Shown here: piece by piece, positions 44,461 through 52,101 of the stretch | How positions within the stretch are numbered: the first letter of the stretch is position 1 | How the letters are laid out: every line of letters starts with the position of its first letter | From: an uncultured Gemmatimonadota bacterium | Lineage (GTDB): Bacteria > Gemmatimonadota > Gemmatimonadetes > Gemmatimonadales > Gemmatimonadaceae | Reading direction: 5' to 3' | Assembly: GCA_902826615.1 (NCBI GenBank) | Contig: CADEFN010000001.1 | Span: forward strand, 806,001-870,000 | DNA: 64,000 nt | Position numbers and translations under genes: made by a program | Notes under the pieces: model-generated | The model's database searches: none | What the model saw: the letters and a program-made list of their open reading frames with translations, nothing else | Told to the model about the DNA's origin: nothing

Positions 44461-44732
44461 GGGCGCCCGTTTTGTGACCCAGCAAGTAGTCGAAGGCTTC
44501 GAGAGTTCGTGATTCCGCCCCGGTGGTTCCATTCGCGCGCGGTCACGGTGCGATGCATGAAGGGCCGAAGCGTACACGACGCTCACATGGTCGAGGCTCG
44601 ATCTGTGCCTCAAATCAGGGGTTGGCCGGGACAACCCCTGAGCGCTCTGCGAGTATCGCGGGCAAGCTATCGCTGACAAAGCGCGCGACCTCAAAACTTC
44701 CAATCGCGCGGCCAACCAGGCGCGACCCAGCA

Positions 44733-45238
44733 GTAAACACGCGGATAGGATTTCGCGGGCGGCTGCTCACTCCATCGCTGTCGGACTCGACGTTCACCAT
44801 CATGCTGGTGCCGCTGCCGCCCATGCTGGACCGGGTTGTCGTGGAGGAAGAGGCCCTTCCTGGCTGGCTCAGACGCGAGGGACGCAATCGCGACTTGATG
44901 GATGCGCGGAGAGGAGGCCGCCTTCTCTTGCGCGCTGACATCGAACGCCTCGGCAGTCCTTTCCTCACGAACGTGCTCGAGCGCGTGCCTGGGCTTAAGG
45001 TCGAAGGGGATGTGGTTTACGTACCCCGGGCACGGAGAAGCTCGATCGAAAGGCCGTGTGCTGGCGTAGTTGTATATCTCGATGGCTCAAGCCTCGGCGA
45101 GGTCGACAACATGAACCATGTCATCCGCCCGTCGGAGCTGGAGGCAATCGAGGTGTTGTCGGGCCGTCGTCGGTGCCGCGAAGTATGGCGGGCCCGCAGT
45201 CCGGTTGCGGTGTCATTGCGCTCTGGTCAAAGCGGTAA
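44733..45238 (+). pseudogene. Truncated, frameshifted copy of the TonB-plug protein gene
   Basis: From TRIGFRGRLLTPS to the end this stretch is a close copy of the intact gene at 45364-46143, at an offset of about 905 bp. The 5' half (signal peptide and regulatory domain) is missing. A single T is deleted at about 45155 (GTGTTGTCGGG here, GTGTTTGTCGGG in the intact copy), so the final PSSVPRSM...GVIALWSKR segment is in another frame, with the stop at 45236. Many residues still match, so the duplication is recent or was recently functional. Confidence 0.85.
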
Positions 45239-45363
45239 CTATCGGACGCAGCTGCCATCGGTTTCCTCCTGCGCAGCGTTCCATCGGTAGATATTGACTC
45301 CTCTGCGTCGCAAAAGCGGATGAGCTTGCCTGGCCGGGGGCCACGGCTGACATTTGTCGCAAG

Positions 45364-46143
45364 ATGCCTCTGTCCACGCGCCTCCTTGTTCTGGTGCATC
45401 CGCTCCTGTGGCCGGGCGTCAGTGCGCAACATCGATCCAGCCTGCCCGTAGCAAAGACAGCGGAGCACAGCGCAGTGGGCGTCGTTCATCAGCCGCGCCG
45501 TGCTCGCGTCATTGACAGTTTGTCTGGCGCACCCATTCCTGGTGTCAGGCTCCGTTTCCCCGACGAGAAGGCCGAGCGACGAACCGACTCAACCGGGAGC
45601 TTTACGTGGCCCGGCTCCGGCCTGCCGGCGTGGGTCTATGCCACACGGATCGGATTTCGCGGGAGACTCCTCACCCCGTCACCGTCGGACTCGACGGTTA
45701 CGATCATGCTCGTGCCGCTGCCGCCCATGCTGAACCGGGTTGTTGTGGAGGAAGAGGCCCTCCCCGCCTGGCTCCTACGCCAGGGACGCAATCGCGATCT
45801 GCAGGATGCGCGGAGAGGTGGTCGTCTTCTTTTGCGCGCTGACATCGAACGGCGTGGGGCGGCTACCCTGGCGCAGGCGCTCGAGGGGGTGCCGGGCCTC
45901 AGGGTGTTTGGGGACTATGTCTATGTGACCCGTGCTGAGCGCTCGTCGCTTTTGAACCCGTGCACTGCCGTTATTGTGTATCTCGATGGCTTGAACCTTG
46001 GCGAGGTCGACAACGTGAACAATGTCATCCGCCCGTCGGAGCTGGAGGCCATCGAGGTGTTTGTCGGGCCGTCATCAGTGCCACGAAGTATGGCGACCCA
46101 GCAGTCAGCTTGTGGGGTTATCGCGCTCTGGTCAAAGCGTTAG
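45364..46143 (+). CDS. Secreted CarboxypepD-regulatory / TonB-plug protein lacking a barrel
   Basis: A 259-residue exported protein (MPLSTRLLVLVHPLLWPGVSAQ). Residues ~45-115 form a carboxypeptidase-regulatory-like domain (RVIDSLSGAPIPGVRLRFPDEKAERRTDSTGSF). The rest resembles a TonB receptor plug: GGRLLLRADIERRGAATLAQALEGVPGLRVFG, VIVYLDGLNLGEVDNVNNVIRPSELEAIEVFVGPSS and a final CGVIALWSKR. The outer-membrane barrel is missing, so this is a stand-alone plug. Such proteins are frequent in this phylum and may bind receptor partners or form pores with others. A degenerate tandem copy precedes it. Confidence 0.8.
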   Translation: MPLSTRLLVLVHPLLWPGVSAQHRSSLPVAKTAEHSAVGVVHQPRRARVIDSLSGAPIPGVRLRFPDEKAERRTDSTGSFTWPGSGLPAWVYATRIGFRGRLLTPSPSDSTVTIMLVPLPPMLNRVVVEEEALPAWLLRQGRNRDLQDARRGGRLLLRADIERRGAATLAQALEGVPGLRVFGDYVYVTRAERSSLLNPCTAVIVYLDGLNLGEVDNVNNVIRPSELEAIEVFVGPSSVPRSMATQQSACGVIALWSKR

Positions 46144-46206: not shown

Positions 46207-48039
46207 TCAGCGCACCGGGAAAACGGCGTCGAAGTTGTTGAAGCTTTTCACGCGGAGAGTCAGCGCCCCGCGTCGTGGCGCAACGACTACATCCATGGTT
46301 TCCCCCGGGCCAAGCGCAAAGCGCGCCGGCCGCGTTAGCGGCACAGGAAGGTCCGCACCATCCTTTGCCACCAGTTGCCACGTCAGTGCACTCTCACCCT
46401 GCAACGCCTCAACGTCCACTACGTCAGCAGCAGCAATGTTGATGAAGCGGAAGCGATACGACACGCCAGCCTGCAGCGGCTGCTTTGACCGATGGGCGAC
46501 AACTGACGCGGTATCACTGGTCCCTGCGACGGCAAACACCACCACCCGATCACGATCCGGGTTCCATCGCCGTCCGGGCTCCAGCACGATCATCGCGCCA
46601 TACATGCCTGACGAGATCTGCCGTACTTCCGAGAAGTGTGAGTGGTACATGAAGGTGCCGGCGCGCGGTGGCGTGAATCGCGCGACAAAGGAGTCGCTTG
46701 GCGCAATTGAAGGCGCGACGCGCCTCGCCGAGCCGCTCCATCCACCTACCCCATCGAAGTAGCTCTCGAGCTCCATGCCGTGCCAGTGCACTGCGGTTGG
46801 TTCGCTCAGGCGGTTGTGCACCGTGATCGCCACCGGCTCACCGCGTGTGAGAATCAGGGGTGGGCCGGGAATGGTGATGGAATCGCCGGGAATGGCGTTT
46901 GGAGAGGCAAGCACAAAGCCGATGCCAACGGAATCTCCAAACACGCGAGCACGCTGCTGAACACTCAAGTCGATGCGGCGTGCGGTCAGTGGGGGGGCCA
47001 CATCATCGGGGCCCGTCACATCGATTCCCATCACAAGGCCCGACATGCCGTGGGTACTCGACCCGCCGACGTGCCTTGCCGCTGGGAGTGGCGTGGTATC
47101 TCCGAGCAGCGCCATGCGCCACATCTCCGCAGCGACCGGGAGATTGGCCTCCATTTCATGCTCGACGTGAAAGGCGTCGTGGCAATGAAAGAGCCATCGT
47201 CCTGCGCGGGCCGGGCTCCAGGAGATGGTCATGCTTTCGCCGATGTTGAGCACTTCGGTGACCGCGAGCCGTTGTTGTGCCGCAGTGTAGGCCGTATCGC
47301 CGGTTCGTGTGCCACGGGCGTCCACACGGAAGTATGCGCCGTGCAGGTGCATGGGGTGCACACTTCCGGCAAAGTTGATGACGCGCCAGTGTGCAGTGTC
47401 ACCAACTGCCAGCTGCAGGCGTTCGGTGTGTGGCCACATCTTGCCGTTGATGGCCAGCACAAAGGTCGAGTCTCCCCCGCTGGGAGGTGCGCCAGCCCAG
47501 GCCGTAATTGCGAAAATCCGGTCTGGGGGTGCCGCGATCGAATCCACGGCGATCACGCCGACGAGTTGTCCGCCGCGCCCGCCAAACCGCTGTTGCGCCC
47601 CACGTCGTGTGCGTCCGGCATACCCATGCAAACCGGGATACCGAGCGACGAACTTTGCGGTGCCAGTAGCACCGGGCGCAACAAGCAGCGTGTCGCCTGA
47701 TCGAGGATCGAGCAGACCGGAGACGAGCAGCGTGTCACTGAGCCGGTTCGCCAGGGTCAGGCTCACCGTGTCCCCAATCTGCACACGAATCAGGGGCCCG
47801 GGCACGGACGGTGTCTTGCCGACCTCCGCGAATGCGGCCACTTCCAGTGTTGGTCCGTCGCTGGACGAGGGAGCCCAGTGCGCCGTCCGCGCCTCGAGGG
47901 CAATCGTTCGTCTCCCGTGGGTTCCAACACCGGCTGACATGCTGAGGTCGTTGACTACGGCATTGGGTGTTGCCGGCCCCGTGCAGGCTGCACACCACAG
48001 GCCCGTACACAGGGCCACCGCTGCATAACGAGGGCGCAC
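46207..48039 (-). CDS. Multicopper oxidase with permuted copper-site order
   Basis: A 610-residue secreted oxidase. All copper ligands are present but in unusual order: HPMHLHG and HCHDAFHVEHEM (normally C-terminal) come first at about residues 228-295, and HWHGMELESYFDG plus MYHSHFSE (normally N-terminal) come later at about 410-470. The flanking cupredoxin domains have lost their histidines. The architecture therefore looks like two fused two-domain oxidases in which one trinuclear centre remains, between the second and third domains. It likely oxidises phenols or Cu(I)/Fe(II) with O2. Start GTG 48039 lies 4 bp after the serine hydrolase stop. The N-terminal CTGLWCAAC may be a lipoprotein signal. 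Confidence 0.85.
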   Translation of the reverse strand: MRPRYAAVALCTGLWCAACTGPATPNAVVNDLSMSAGVGTHGRRTIALEARTAHWAPSSSDGPTLEVAAFAEVGKTPSVPGPLIRVQIGDTVSLTLANRLSDTLLVSGLLDPRSGDTLLVAPGATGTAKFVARYPGLHGYAGRTRRGAQQRFGGRGGQLVGVIAVDSIAAPPDRIFAITAWAGAPPSGGDSTFVLAINGKMWPHTERLQLAVGDTAHWRVINFAGSVHPMHLHGAYFRVDARGTRTGDTAYTAAQQRLAVTEVLNIGESMTISWSPARAGRWLFHCHDAFHVEHEMEANLPVAAEMWRMALLGDTTPLPAARHVGGSSTHGMSGLVMGIDVTGPDDVAPPLTARRIDLSVQQRARVFGDSVGIGFVLASPNAIPGDSITIPGPPLILTRGEPVAITVHNRLSEPTAVHWHGMELESYFDGVGGWSGSARRVAPSIAPSDSFVARFTPPRAGTFMYHSHFSEVRQISSGMYGAMIVLEPGRRWNPDRDRVVVFAVAGTSDTASVVAHRSKQPLQAGVSYRFRFINIAAADVVDVEALQGESALTWQLVAKDGADLPVPLTRPARFALGPGETMDVVVAPRRGALTLRVKSFNNFDAVFPVR

Positions 48040-48043
48040 TCGA

Positions 48044-49417
48044 CTATCGCTTCGTGAACTGGATGTTTCGAACCCGACCGGCCGCTACCGAGAAGCCGGT
48101 AGCGCCTTGCGCAAAGGTCAGCGTGATCCCGGCGGCGCGATACGTTCCTTCTGGCGACACGGTCAAGGTGTCACTCCGTCCTGGTGGCCGGTCCACGACC
48201 AGTCCGCCATTCACAGCGCGGACTACCCAGGTTGCGTCCACTTCCGGTGAGTAGTACGTCCCGACCAACGATGCCTCAGACGCACGTGAGGGCGCGGTCC
48301 GCTGGGCAGGAGCCGGCATCGCGCGTGGTGTCGGCCGAGGCCCGAGCTTCGTCGCCAGGAAGTGGTCGGCAATGCGGTACGACAGTGCATCAGGTGCGAT
48401 CGTGCCGAGATTGCACTGCGCCAGCACGGTAAAGTGCTGATCGGGAAAGCGCAGGATGTTCGCCTTGAAGCCCATGAGTGCGCCGCTGTGTTCGGTGACC
48501 CGAAGCCCGCGATAGGTGGAGACGTTGTTGCCGAAGGCGTAGGGAAGGGTGTCGCCACTGGCCAGCACGGCCCGCTCGTGAATGAGGCGCTGCAGGGCGT
48601 CACCGCCAACTTTCTTTGTGTAGAAGTTCTCGTCCCACTTCTGCAGGTCGTCGAGGGTGGTGTACAAGCCACCGGCGCCGATCTTGTCGAAGTTCTGGAC
48701 ATAGGAGAGGGTGAACCCGCCTTTGCCGTCGGGTTCGTAGGCCATCGCCCGCCCCGGCATGACATGACCCGGGTCGTCGTGGAAGTGCGTGCGGGTCATG
48801 CCTAACGGTTGGAAGATCGCGGAGTCGGCGAAAACACGAAGTGACTGGCCGGTCACGCGCTTCACCAGCTGACCCAGCAGGAAGTAGCCGGAGTTGGAGT
48901 AGAGGTGGTCCGTGCCAGGGCGAAAGTTGAGCTCCTTCTGACGGGCGATGAGCTGCAAGGCGTCGGCGTCGGTGAAGACATCTTCCAGGCGTTTCCCGGC
49001 CAGCGCCATGAGCACATAGATGTCGCGCAAACCGCCGGTGTGATACACCAGCTGCCGCACGGTCACGGGGGTGCCGTAATCCGGCATCTCGGGAAAATAC
49101 TTCCGGATATCGTCGTCGAGGCTGATACGTCCGGCGAGTGACAAAATGGCAATCGCCGCCGCGGTGAACTGCTTGGAGTCGGAGCCGACGTAGTAGAGCT
49201 TGTCGGGACCGTTAGGCAGCCGGTAGTCGAGGTTGGCCGACCCGTATCCGCGCTTGTACAGCCACTTTCCCTGCTGCAGCACGCCAACGGTACACCCGGG
49301 CGAATCGGCGCGGTCCCACGCGGCAAAGAGTTTGTCGATCGCCGGAATTCGCGGTTGCGCGCCACTGCTGAGGGGCAGGAGAAGCAGGGCGGCGGCAAGG
49401 AGAGGACGGGAGTTCAT
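48044..49417 (-). CDS. Serine hydrolase (class C beta-lactamase/DD-peptidase family)
   Basis: A 457-residue periplasmic enzyme with signal MNSRPLLAAALLLLPLSSGAQ. Catalytic motifs: SDSKQFT (SxxK), LYSNSGYFL (YxN) and TEHSGALMG (HxG, the KTG equivalent). A C-terminal ~90-residue beta domain (SLVGTYYSPEVDATWVVRAVNGG...) is typical of this family. It hydrolyses beta-lactam-like or D-peptide/ester substrates. The first ATG overlaps the HupE stop by four bases, and the multicopper oxidase gene follows 4 bp on, so all three are translated together. A decayed relative lies at 44320-44460. Confidence 0.9.
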   Translation of the reverse strand: MNSRPLLAAALLLLPLSSGAQPRIPAIDKLFAAWDRADSPGCTVGVLQQGKWLYKRGYGSANLDYRLPNGPDKLYYVGSDSKQFTAAAIAILSLAGRISLDDDIRKYFPEMPDYGTPVTVRQLVYHTGGLRDIYVLMALAGKRLEDVFTDADALQLIARQKELNFRPGTDHLYSNSGYFLLGQLVKRVTGQSLRVFADSAIFQPLGMTRTHFHDDPGHVMPGRAMAYEPDGKGGFTLSYVQNFDKIGAGGLYTTLDDLQKWDENFYTKKVGGDALQRLIHERAVLASGDTLPYAFGNNVSTYRGLRVTEHSGALMGFKANILRFPDQHFTVLAQCNLGTIAPDALSYRIADHFLATKLGPRPTPRAMPAPAQRTAPSRASEASLVGTYYSPEVDATWVVRAVNGGLVVDRPPGRSDTLTVSPEGTYRAAGITLTFAQGATGFSVAAGRVRNIQFTKR

Positions 49418-50811
49418 GGTTGCGAGGGTTGAATGTTCTGCAAAACGTCGGGGTCCGGTGTTGTCGCTCCGCCCACGCGACGGATGAGCGCGCGTGTCCC
49501 CCAAGCCACCACACCAACAATCAGGGCCAGCATGGCCAGCCGCATCAGACCGGCGCCAGACGTCGCGTCGGCCGCCGGGAGGCTCCAGTCATACTCACGA
49601 AGTGTGGCACCGCGTTCCGTCATCCAGTGCCACGCGGTGTGCGCCACAAGGGCCGAGAGCAGGATGGTCACCATTCGTTCGTTGGCGACACGCCGGAAGG
49701 TCAGTGACAACACGGGCACAGCGATTGCCACCACCAGCAATTGGCCCAGCTCGACTCCCACATTGAAGGAAAGAAGCGAGGTAGGGAGATGTGAGCCGGC
49801 GAACTGCAGCGACTCCCGGAGTGCAAACGAAAAGCCGAAGCCGTGAATCAGACCGAACCCGAACGCCAGCATCCACCGTCGCTCGAGATGTGCGCCGAGG
49901 ATGTTCTCAAAGGCCATCAAGAGGATGGAGAGGGCAATGAGTGTCTCGACCAGCGGCGGAAACCAGAGGGCATCGGGTGCGAAACCCGAGGCTGACGCGA
50001 TAAGCGTCACCGAGTGCGCGGCGGTGAAGGCGGTCACGATGCCGATGAGTGGCCGTAACCGCCGGACCGGAATCACCAGGCAAAGGAGAAACAGCAGGTG
50101 ATCGACGCCATCAAGGATGTGCCGGAAGCCCAGGGCGACAAAACGCCAGGCCGCGTGCCAGAAGCCAGGATCGAGTTCGACGCGACCGGGATCGCCAGTG
50201 TACTGAAAGACGCGTTCACTCCCGCCGGCGGGGAGGAAGCGCAGCACCGTGGTGGTCTGCAGCCCGAGTTGGGCGAGAAAGGGCTCGATGGCGAACTGCG
50301 CACTTTCGGAGGTGATGGGATACTCGAGCAGCACATCGAGCATGGCTTGCTGCCAGGGAATTTCGGTGTCACTGCCGAGTGGGGGGCCATTCACATGGGC
50401 GAGTGCGGTCGCGAACTCCGCAAAGGCACGATCGGATGGGAGCGACGCCCGCGCGGACACCACCTGCCCGCCCTCGAGCTGCCGACTGTCCTGAAAGAGA
50501 TGGATGTAATCGGCGAGCCAGAGCTGGGCCGCGTCGCGGAAGTGCTGCTGGGCGCGGTCGACGTCGAGGTACCCGGCGCCCTTGAGCGGAAAATCCATGT
50601 CCCGCATGGCGCCGAGCGGTGCGCGCACGAGGATCTGGAGGCGTGACCCGGTGGGTTTGACGTACACGATGGCCGACACGCGGCTGGGGATTTCGTGCGC
50701 GCGCGCGGGAACTGCCGACACCACGAGCATCGCGGCGACCAAACCGGAGAGCGTGGCTGCGCGACGCAGGTGATGCGCGGCGAAGGTGACGGTTTCGGCC
50801 AACAGTTGCAC
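49414..50811 (-). CDS. HupE/UreJ family membrane protein
   Basis: A 465-residue protein with a signal peptide (LSGLVAAMLVVSAVPARA) followed by HEIPSRV, then ~180 residues of extracytoplasmic domain and about seven membrane helices. The HupE/UreJ mark is FRHILDGVDHLLFLLCLVIP, with further histidines in FTAAHSVTL and GLIHGFGFSFAL. Members are putative Ni, Co or other metal permeases; the long N-terminal domain is found in the HupE/UreJ_2 group. First gene of a three-gene operon with the serine hydrolase and multicopper oxidase, which suggests a metal (perhaps copper) link. Confidence 0.85.
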   Translation of the reverse strand: MQLLAETVTFAAHHLRRAATLSGLVAAMLVVSAVPARAHEIPSRVSAIVYVKPTGSRLQILVRAPLGAMRDMDFPLKGAGYLDVDRAQQHFRDAAQLWLADYIHLFQDSRQLEGGQVVSARASLPSDRAFAEFATALAHVNGPPLGSDTEIPWQQAMLDVLLEYPITSESAQFAIEPFLAQLGLQTTTVLRFLPAGGSERVFQYTGDPGRVELDPGFWHAAWRFVALGFRHILDGVDHLLFLLCLVIPVRRLRPLIGIVTAFTAAHSVTLIASASGFAPDALWFPPLVETLIALSILLMAFENILGAHLERRWMLAFGFGLIHGFGFSFALRESLQFAGSHLPTSLLSFNVGVELGQLLVVAIAVPVLSLTFRRVANERMVTILLSALVAHTAWHWMTERGATLREYDWSLPAADATSGAGLMRLAMLALIVGVVAWGTRALIRRVGGATTPDPDVLQNIQPSQP

Positions 50812-50925: not shown

Positions 50926-52101
50926 ATGACCGGACGACGCACGATCCTGATCGGACTTTCCGTTGCGGCCGCCGTGGCGGCCCTGGGGGTCGGCCAATCG
51001 CGACTGCAGGCGGCCTCGCGAGACCAGGCGGTGCAGGCCCCGCGGTTCGAGGTGGATCCGATGTGGCCCAAACCCATGCCTAACAACTGGATCCTGGGCT
51101 CGACGATCGGGGTGGGTGTCGACTCCAAGGACCATGTCTTCATCATCCATCGAGGAGACTCCACGCTCAATCAGCGCACCGAGGCGGGTGGTGGCGGCCG
51201 GATCGGGGAGTGCTGTCTTTCGGCGCCGCCGATTCTCGAGTTTGATCCGGCGGGCAACCTGGTCAACTCGTGGGGCGGCCCGGGACAGGGGTACGACTGG
51301 CCCTCGTCCAATCACGGCGTGTCGATCGACGCCAAGGACAATGTGTGGATTGGTGGCAACGGCAACGGCGATTCGCACATTCTCAAATTCTCACACGATG
51401 GCAAGTTCCTGGCGCAGTTTGGCCAGGCCAAGCAGCCCGTGAACAGCAGCAGCAAGACGAGCTTTGGCCGTGTGGCAAAAATCTCGTTCGATGACAAGGC
51501 CAACGAGGCCTATGTCTCCGATGGTTATGCCAACAAACGTGTGGCCGTGATCGACATGAACACGGGCGCGGTGAAGCGTTTCTGGGGCGCATATGGGGAA
51601 GCGCCCAAGGACACCAACATGGGGCCCTACAACCCCGATGCGCCGCTCATCCGCCAGTTCCGCAATCCGGTGCACTGCGCTGAGCCGACCAACGATGGAT
51701 TGGTGTACGTCTGCGACCGGCCGAATGATCGCATTCAGGTGTTCCAGAAGGACGGCAAATTCGTGAATGAGGTGCAGGTGGCGCCGAAAACTCGTGGCGA
51801 CGGCTCGACGTGGGACATTGCCTTCTCGCGTGACGCAGCGCAGCGCTACCTGTATCTCGCGGACGGCAAGAACGAGAAGATCTACGTGATGGACCGCAAG
51901 ACGCTCACGATTCTCACGGAATTTGGCGACGGGGGCCGTCAGCCGGGGCAGTTCTTTGCGGTGCACAGCATCGCGACGGACTCCAAGGGCAACATCTACA
52001 CAACCGAGACCTACGAAGGAAAGCGACTCCAGAAGTTCACCTACAAGGGAGTTGCCAGCGTGCCGCGCAAGCAGGGTGTGCCTTGGCCGAAGGGAAAATA
52101 G
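50926..52101 (+). CDS. Secreted NHL-repeat protein (amidating-lyase-like)
   Basis: A 391-residue protein with an N-terminal hydrophobic signal (TILIGLSVAAAVAALGVG). NHL blades follow: GSTIGVGVDSKDHVFIIHRGD, LEFDPAGNLVNSWGG, SNHGVSIDAKDNVWIGGNGNGD, LKFSHDGKFLAQFG, DEAYVSDGYANKRVAVID, NRPNDRIQVF-type and HSIATDSKGNIYTTETYEGKRLQKF. It resembles peptidyl-alpha-hydroxyglycine alpha-amidating lyase-like propellers. The GECCLSA site near residue 90 is a notable cysteine pair. Related to the 35445-36473 protein. Substrate unknown; periplasmic. Confidence 0.85.
   Translation: MTGRRTILIGLSVAAAVAALGVGQSRLQAASRDQAVQAPRFEVDPMWPKPMPNNWILGSTIGVGVDSKDHVFIIHRGDSTLNQRTEAGGGGRIGECCLSAPPILEFDPAGNLVNSWGGPGQGYDWPSSNHGVSIDAKDNVWIGGNGNGDSHILKFSHDGKFLAQFGQAKQPVNSSSKTSFGRVAKISFDDKANEAYVSDGYANKRVAVIDMNTGAVKRFWGAYGEAPKDTNMGPYNPDAPLIRQFRNPVHCAEPTNDGLVYVCDRPNDRIQVFQKDGKFVNEVQVAPKTRGDGSTWDIAFSRDAAQRYLYLADGKNEKIYVMDRKTLTILTEFGDGGRQPGQFFAVHSIATDSKGNIYTTETYEGKRLQKFTYKGVASVPRKQGVPWPKGK

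Follow-up and report, generated by a model that had tools for sequence, protein, structure and literature searches.

A four-domain multicopper oxidase with its copper motifs in reversed order, common in Gemmatimonadota

In the window that we analysed, a stretch of 64,000 nucleotides from an uncultured Gemmatimonadota bacterium, a multicopper oxidase (MCO) gene runs on the minus strand from 48039 to 46207 as a single open reading frame with no internal stops (Table 1). The sequence-only reading that had singled out this gene gave its coordinates correctly, and to these the strand can now be added. Upstream of the oxidase lie the genes for a beta-lactamase-fold serine hydrolase and for a HupE/UreJ-type membrane protein. 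Because the HupE/UreJ and hydrolase genes share an ATGA overlap and the hydrolase ends only 4 bases before the oxidase start, these three genes probably form one transcript. Among the loci we compared (L002-L110), HupE adjoins the oxidase only on an acidobacterial contig assigned to Bryobacterales (L074:2565-7836), where the NHL, HupE and oxidase genes are found again and a small gene replaces the hydrolase. HupE homologues were present in 20 of 60 genomes, but adjoined the oxidase in no other genome when the places were compared by eye, and no convincing recurrent neighbour family emerged among 80 loci, for which single-linkage clusters mixed large families. The operon was considered as a clue to function and set aside, since the HupE-hydrolase-oxidase run is not general, and the neighbourhood therefore offers no firm hint of the substrate. 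Beyond the 3' end of the oxidase, two adjacent plus-strand ORFs (44523-45290 and 45364-46143) contain a closely similar stretch, GFRGRLLTPS...VVVEEEALP; a TonB plug match was seen in ORF 45364-46143 and none in 44523-45290, and the arrangement looks like a decaying tandem copy.

Table 1. Features of the oxidase locus, in window coordinates
Feature	Residues	Position	Strand	Remarks
Four-domain multicopper oxidase ORF		46207..48039	-	610 aa; GTG start at 48039, stop at 46207
Domain 1	38-168	47536..47928	-	N-type cupredoxin without copper ligands; two-domain MCO domain 1 nearest (hhalign 105)
Domain 2	172-305	47125..47526	-	C-type, type 1 copper and trinuclear half-site; Pfam Cu-oxidase_2; hhalign 131
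Linker, domains 2-3	306-351	46987..47124	-	Contains lower-confidence model block, residues 321-330
Domain 3	352-488	46576..46986	-	N-type, other trinuclear half-site; Pfam Cu-oxidase_3; hhalign 165, 157
Domain 4	489-610	46210..46575	-	C-type without copper ligands, resembles laccase domain 2
HPMHLHG motif	228-234	47338..47358	-	His 228, 231, 233 invariant, 70/70
HCHDAFHVEHEM motif	285-296	47152..47187	-	H285, C286, H287, H291 invariant, 70/70; M296 variable
HWHG motif	418-421	46777..46788	-	H418, H420 invariant, 70/70
HSH motif	466-468	46636..46644	-	H466, H468 invariant, 70/70
Beta-lactamase-fold serine hydrolase, upstream of oxidase		48044..49417	-	PF00144; likely ATG at 49417; ends 4 bases before oxidase GTG
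HupE/UreJ-type membrane protein, probably first in the unit		49414..50811	-	PF13795; ATGA overlap with hydrolase start
NHL-repeat gene, divergent, upstream		50926-52101	+	

The copper motifs of the oxidase occur once apiece in the order HPMHLHG, HCHDAFHVEHEM, HWHG and HSH, and the best Pfam stretch for Cu-oxidase_2 (residues 193-302, 5.3e-27) precedes that for Cu-oxidase_3 (residues 390-487, 7.2e-28), which inverts the laccase order. Both the motif positions and the Pfam order bear out the earlier observation that the motifs usually found at the C-terminus come before the N-terminal ones.

This order was found at 27 of 30 loci in a first genome search and, as one frame with an HPxHLH motif preceding HWHG, at 76 of the best 80 loci kept from a second search that scanned named genome contigs. 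Both sets were picked by likeness to the query, so the fractions hold for the family, not for oxidases at large. The exceptions in the first search were a fragment (L025) and two weak matches of canonical order (L029 and L030); those in the second were L040, with HMMHLHG in the motif's place, the truncated L043, and L046 and L047, which the motif pattern did not pick up. Some match was present in 53 of 60 related genomes, many of these being single domains of ordinary oxidases, and a match at E ≤ 1e-100 was present in at least 86 of 298 genomes drawn across the phylum (printed rows counted by eye), a lower bound because four candidates per genome were scored. The four-domain family is common in Gemmatimonadota and extends to Acidobacteriota, Bacteroidota and others: the named sources, nearly all metagenome bins, are mostly Gemmatimonadota, followed by Acidobacteriota, Bacteroidota, Rhodothermota, Balneolota, Eremiobacterota and one alphaproteobacterial bin. 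The window's own genome holds three four-domain genes (that of the window, C1:532603 and C5:289660) in addition to canonical-order oxidases. The description of the protein as a rare intermediate does not survive this spread.

Several oxidase genes met in these searches deserve mention in their own right. Two canonical-order oxidases of the window's genome (L134 and L136) have frames that run ~240-320 residues ahead of HWHG, and a 1219-residue frame (L121), considered as a six-domain homologue, proved to be a canonical-order oxidase. One relative (G020) has five four-domain copies (C2:1161062, 1542292, 3207318 and 5003672; C3:418931), and the coordinates of one of them coincide with those of the match on the Gemmatirosa kalamazoonensis plasmid of 1.1 Mb.

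Of the 76 frames extracted, seven were dropped as partial (L079, L081, L084, L087, L106, L108 and L109), and the remaining 69, which are 31-69% identical to the window protein, were aligned with it. Eleven ligands (H228, H231, H233, H285, C286, H287, H291, H418, H420, H466 and H468) do not vary in any of the 70 rows, so that every row has the eight trinuclear His and the type 1 Cys and two His by which the multicopper oxidase superfamily is recognized; the assignment of these residues to type 1, 2 and 3 coppers follows the general pattern of the superfamily. The axial position (M296, window 47152-47154) is M in 2 of the 70 rows, Q in 9 and otherwise mostly V, L, A or I, and in the four closest relatives of the window it is Q where the window has M. 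An axial Met was accordingly discarded as a conserved family feature, and the earlier statement that every ligand is kept applies to the complete, invariant set of 11 but not, across the family, to M296.

Profile comparison and alignment divided the chain into four cupredoxin domains (D1 to D4) of N-C-N-C type, the first and last of them without copper ligands. In profile-profile comparison (hhalign) with two-domain and canonical-order oxidases of the same phylum as reference, D1 scored 105 against two-domain D1; D2 scored 131 against two-domain D2 and 107 against laccase D3; D3 scored 165 against two-domain D1 and 157 against three-domain D1; and D4 scored 69 against two-domain D2, 66 against D2 of its own family and 56 against three-domain (laccase) D2. 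D1 has lost the HxHG/HxH positions: a single one of the four His is retained in 31 of 70 rows, no row retains two, and the second His of HxHG persists as a vestige in 28 rows. The sequences nearest to D1 come from nitrite reductases and two-domain oxidases, in both cases from the N-domain. No copper motif was seen in D4. The PDB sequence matches of D4 lie nearly all in laccase D2, and in sequence alignments to PDB chains D3-D4 is collinear with laccase D1-D2. Taken with the ligand alignment, the domain profiles support the single complete pair of trinuclear half-sites that had been placed in the two middle domains.

AlphaFold2, run with the 70-row alignment, predicted the whole chain with a pLDDT of 90.3 and a pTM of 0.91, and D2-D3 alone with a pLDDT of 88.5 and a pTM of 0.85. 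The top ranks of a whole-chain Foldseek search went to the six-domain proteins factor V, factor VIII and ceruloplasmin, while MnxG (9bxa) stood at rank 19 (TMq 0.61, rmsd 7.5) and laccases reached just TMq 0.35. By VIA-align the whole chain matched two-domain oxidases and nitrite reductases over ~240-260 residues (Z 23-25). The best VIA-align match to D2-D3 was ceruloplasmin 185-547 (Z 17.3, 264 residues aligned, rmsd 3.7), with three-domain oxidases nearly equal (Z 16-17); because rows within one Z unit tie, a ceruloplasmin-like D2-D3 interface is supported but not singled out. The models are consistent with the copper sites of D2 and D3 meeting in one chain, and they bear indirectly on the question raised by the sequence-only reading, whether a predicted structure brings the two motif sets together.

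The motif order, the invariance of the ligands, the N-C-N-C domain homology and the confident predicted fold are the direct evidence behind the enzyme that we propose. We consider it likely that the protein is an exported multicopper oxidase that reduces O2 and belongs to a family with four cupredoxin domains, that it is built of two tandem N-C units with a single D2/D3 cluster, and that it functions as an ordinary four-copper oxidase whose predicted cluster lies at the D2/D3 junction. Its copper loading, electron path, in-chain cluster assembly, scaffold role and export are inferences, and the mechanism draws on established MCO chemistry. In D2, the type 1 copper (H228, C286 and H291, with M296 as a weak axial ligand) would take up an electron from the substrate. 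By way of H285-C286-H287 the electron would reach the trinuclear cluster, with H231, H233, H285 and H287 of D2 and H418, H420, H466 and H468 of D3 as its ligands, where O2 would be reduced to water. Having lost their ligands, D1 and D4 may serve as flanking scaffold. Two N-C units in tandem would each lack a different half-site, and the lone site would therefore fall at the inner D2/D3 junction. An N-terminal helix suggests export of the oxidase. Export as a lipoprotein was considered and set aside: a simple lipobox pattern was found in 4 of 70 rows, and the start codons chosen for the rows may be wrong.

The way the four domains came together had been read as a fusion of two two-domain oxidases after loss of one site. 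The N-C-N-C profiles fit two joined units, and the phylogeny of single cupredoxin domains that had been proposed as a check is compatible with them, but it leaves fusion and tandem duplication undecided. For the single-domain trees one row in four was taken from the four-domain set; the trees are short and many of their forks stay open. In them neither a D1+D3 clade (p 0.74) nor a D2+D4 clade (p 0.54) was rejected, and in the C-type tree D4 groups with laccase D2 (support 98) while a grouping of D2 with two-domain D2 was not rejected (p 0.62). We tentatively suggest, as a possibility that falls short of an even chance, that the family is a fourth structural class of MCO and a surviving stage between the two-domain trimers and six-domain MnxG, Fox1 and ceruloplasmin, with D3-D4 homologous to laccase D1-D2. 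If that homology is true, laccases and the four-domain family would have come from one tandem N-C array that was pruned in two different ways.

The protein could instead be a shortened six-domain oxidase, that is, a MnxG/Fox1-like protein minus domains 5 and 6 and not two two-domain proteins joined, which we consider rather unlikely. According to PMC3600357, all the bacterial six-domain oxidases analysed there have their trinuclear His in domains 2 and 3 and the mononuclear, type 1 site in domain 2, as this oxidase does, and MnxG is within the whole-chain fold matches of highest TMq. Set against this, MnxG was absent among the 60 chains listed by sequence match, as it was among the VIA-align rows listed, an absence that carries little weight, and the sequence of D1 lies closest to N-domains from nitrite reductases and from two-domain oxidases. 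PMC3600357 also describes trinuclear His in domains 2 and 3 of the Chlamydomonas and Dunaliella ferroxidases, and with a trinuclear site between domains 2 and 3 on record for six-domain Fox1 and MnxG, the reversed order has a published precedent that the sequence-only reading had implied was lacking. In the open-access PMC text searched, no four-domain or reordered MCO came up apart from the six-domain case.

A circular permutation of a three-domain laccase (D3-D1-D2) with an extra domain in front would also put the C-terminal motifs first, and the collinearity of D3-D4 with laccase D1-D2, the placing of nearly all PDB matches of D4 in laccase D2 and the tree of C-type domains, where D4 and laccase D2 group together, would all suit it. 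That grouping may however be long-branch attraction, because both domains have lost their ligands. A permutation would have to account separately for D1, an N-type domain directly ahead of a C-type one, which a tandem origin accounts for free, and the trees do not reject D1+D3, D2+D4 or D2 with two-domain D2; we regard it as distinctly improbable.

Two-domain MCOs assemble their clusters between subunits, and since they are the nearest relatives of this oxidase at the level of domains, its trinuclear cluster might be formed by D2 and D3 of different chains, as in the trimeric two-domain laccases. We think this very unlikely, as the single-chain models place the domains confidently and the D2-D3 packing resembles that of ceruloplasmin D2-D3 inside one chain. 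To an artefact, in which misassembly or a rearranged dead gene produced the reversed order, we give practically no credence, as the same order is seen in other assemblies (the 27 and 76 loci above) and the ORF has no internal stops and 11 invariant ligands; the relatives' shared order and invariant ligands rule out chance as well.

PMC3600357 groups multicopper oxidases as two-, three- and six-domain, and the four-domain oxidase shares features with each. With the two-domain laccases and MCOs, which have two domains and both half-sites per chain, it has in common that D1-D2 and D3-D4 each match an N-C two-domain unit, but here two units stand in one chain of four domains, each missing half the ligands, and the chain has just one complete site. 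Like the three-domain laccases, CueO and CopA, it has all the ligands, and its D3-D4 is collinear with laccase D1-D2; those proteins, however, have three domains with HxHG/HxH first and HPxHLH/HCH last, whereas here the C-terminal motifs come first and there is an additional N-terminal domain. No NCBIfam oxidase model reached its cut-off (TIGR01480, CopA type, 115.2 against 478.95 bits; NF008205, CueO, 67.1 against 525). Laccase profile screens that find the motif domains may tally such four-domain proteins as ordinary laccases. NirK shares the two-domain fold of D1-D2, and its N-domain is of the kind nearest to D1 in sequence, but D2-D3 here holds a full trinuclear ligand set, and the copper nitrite reductase model TIGR02376 scored 57.5 against a cut-off of 296.3 bits. 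Ceruloplasmin residues 185-547 pack as D2-D3 is predicted to (Z 17.3), yet that protein has six domains, and PMC3600357 places its cluster at the junction of domains 1 and 6. Six-domain oxidases of the MnxG and Fox1 type likewise draw their trinuclear ligands from domains 2 and 3 and have the type 1 site in domain 2, and the MnxG structure 9bxa matches the whole-chain fold (TMq 0.61); they are 1217-2681 aa long (PMC3600357) versus ~600-700 aa here, where there are four domains and the ORF stops after D4. A four-domain group with the MnxG/Fox1 cluster position would be a living stage on which the evolutionary scheme can be tested, and with its oxidases from soil bacteria it would enlarge an enzyme class that matters in the chemistry of copper, iron, manganese and phenols. 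The window oxidase is not a laccase by motif order, nor a two-domain nor a six-domain oxidase; it is a new four-domain variant, and a common one.
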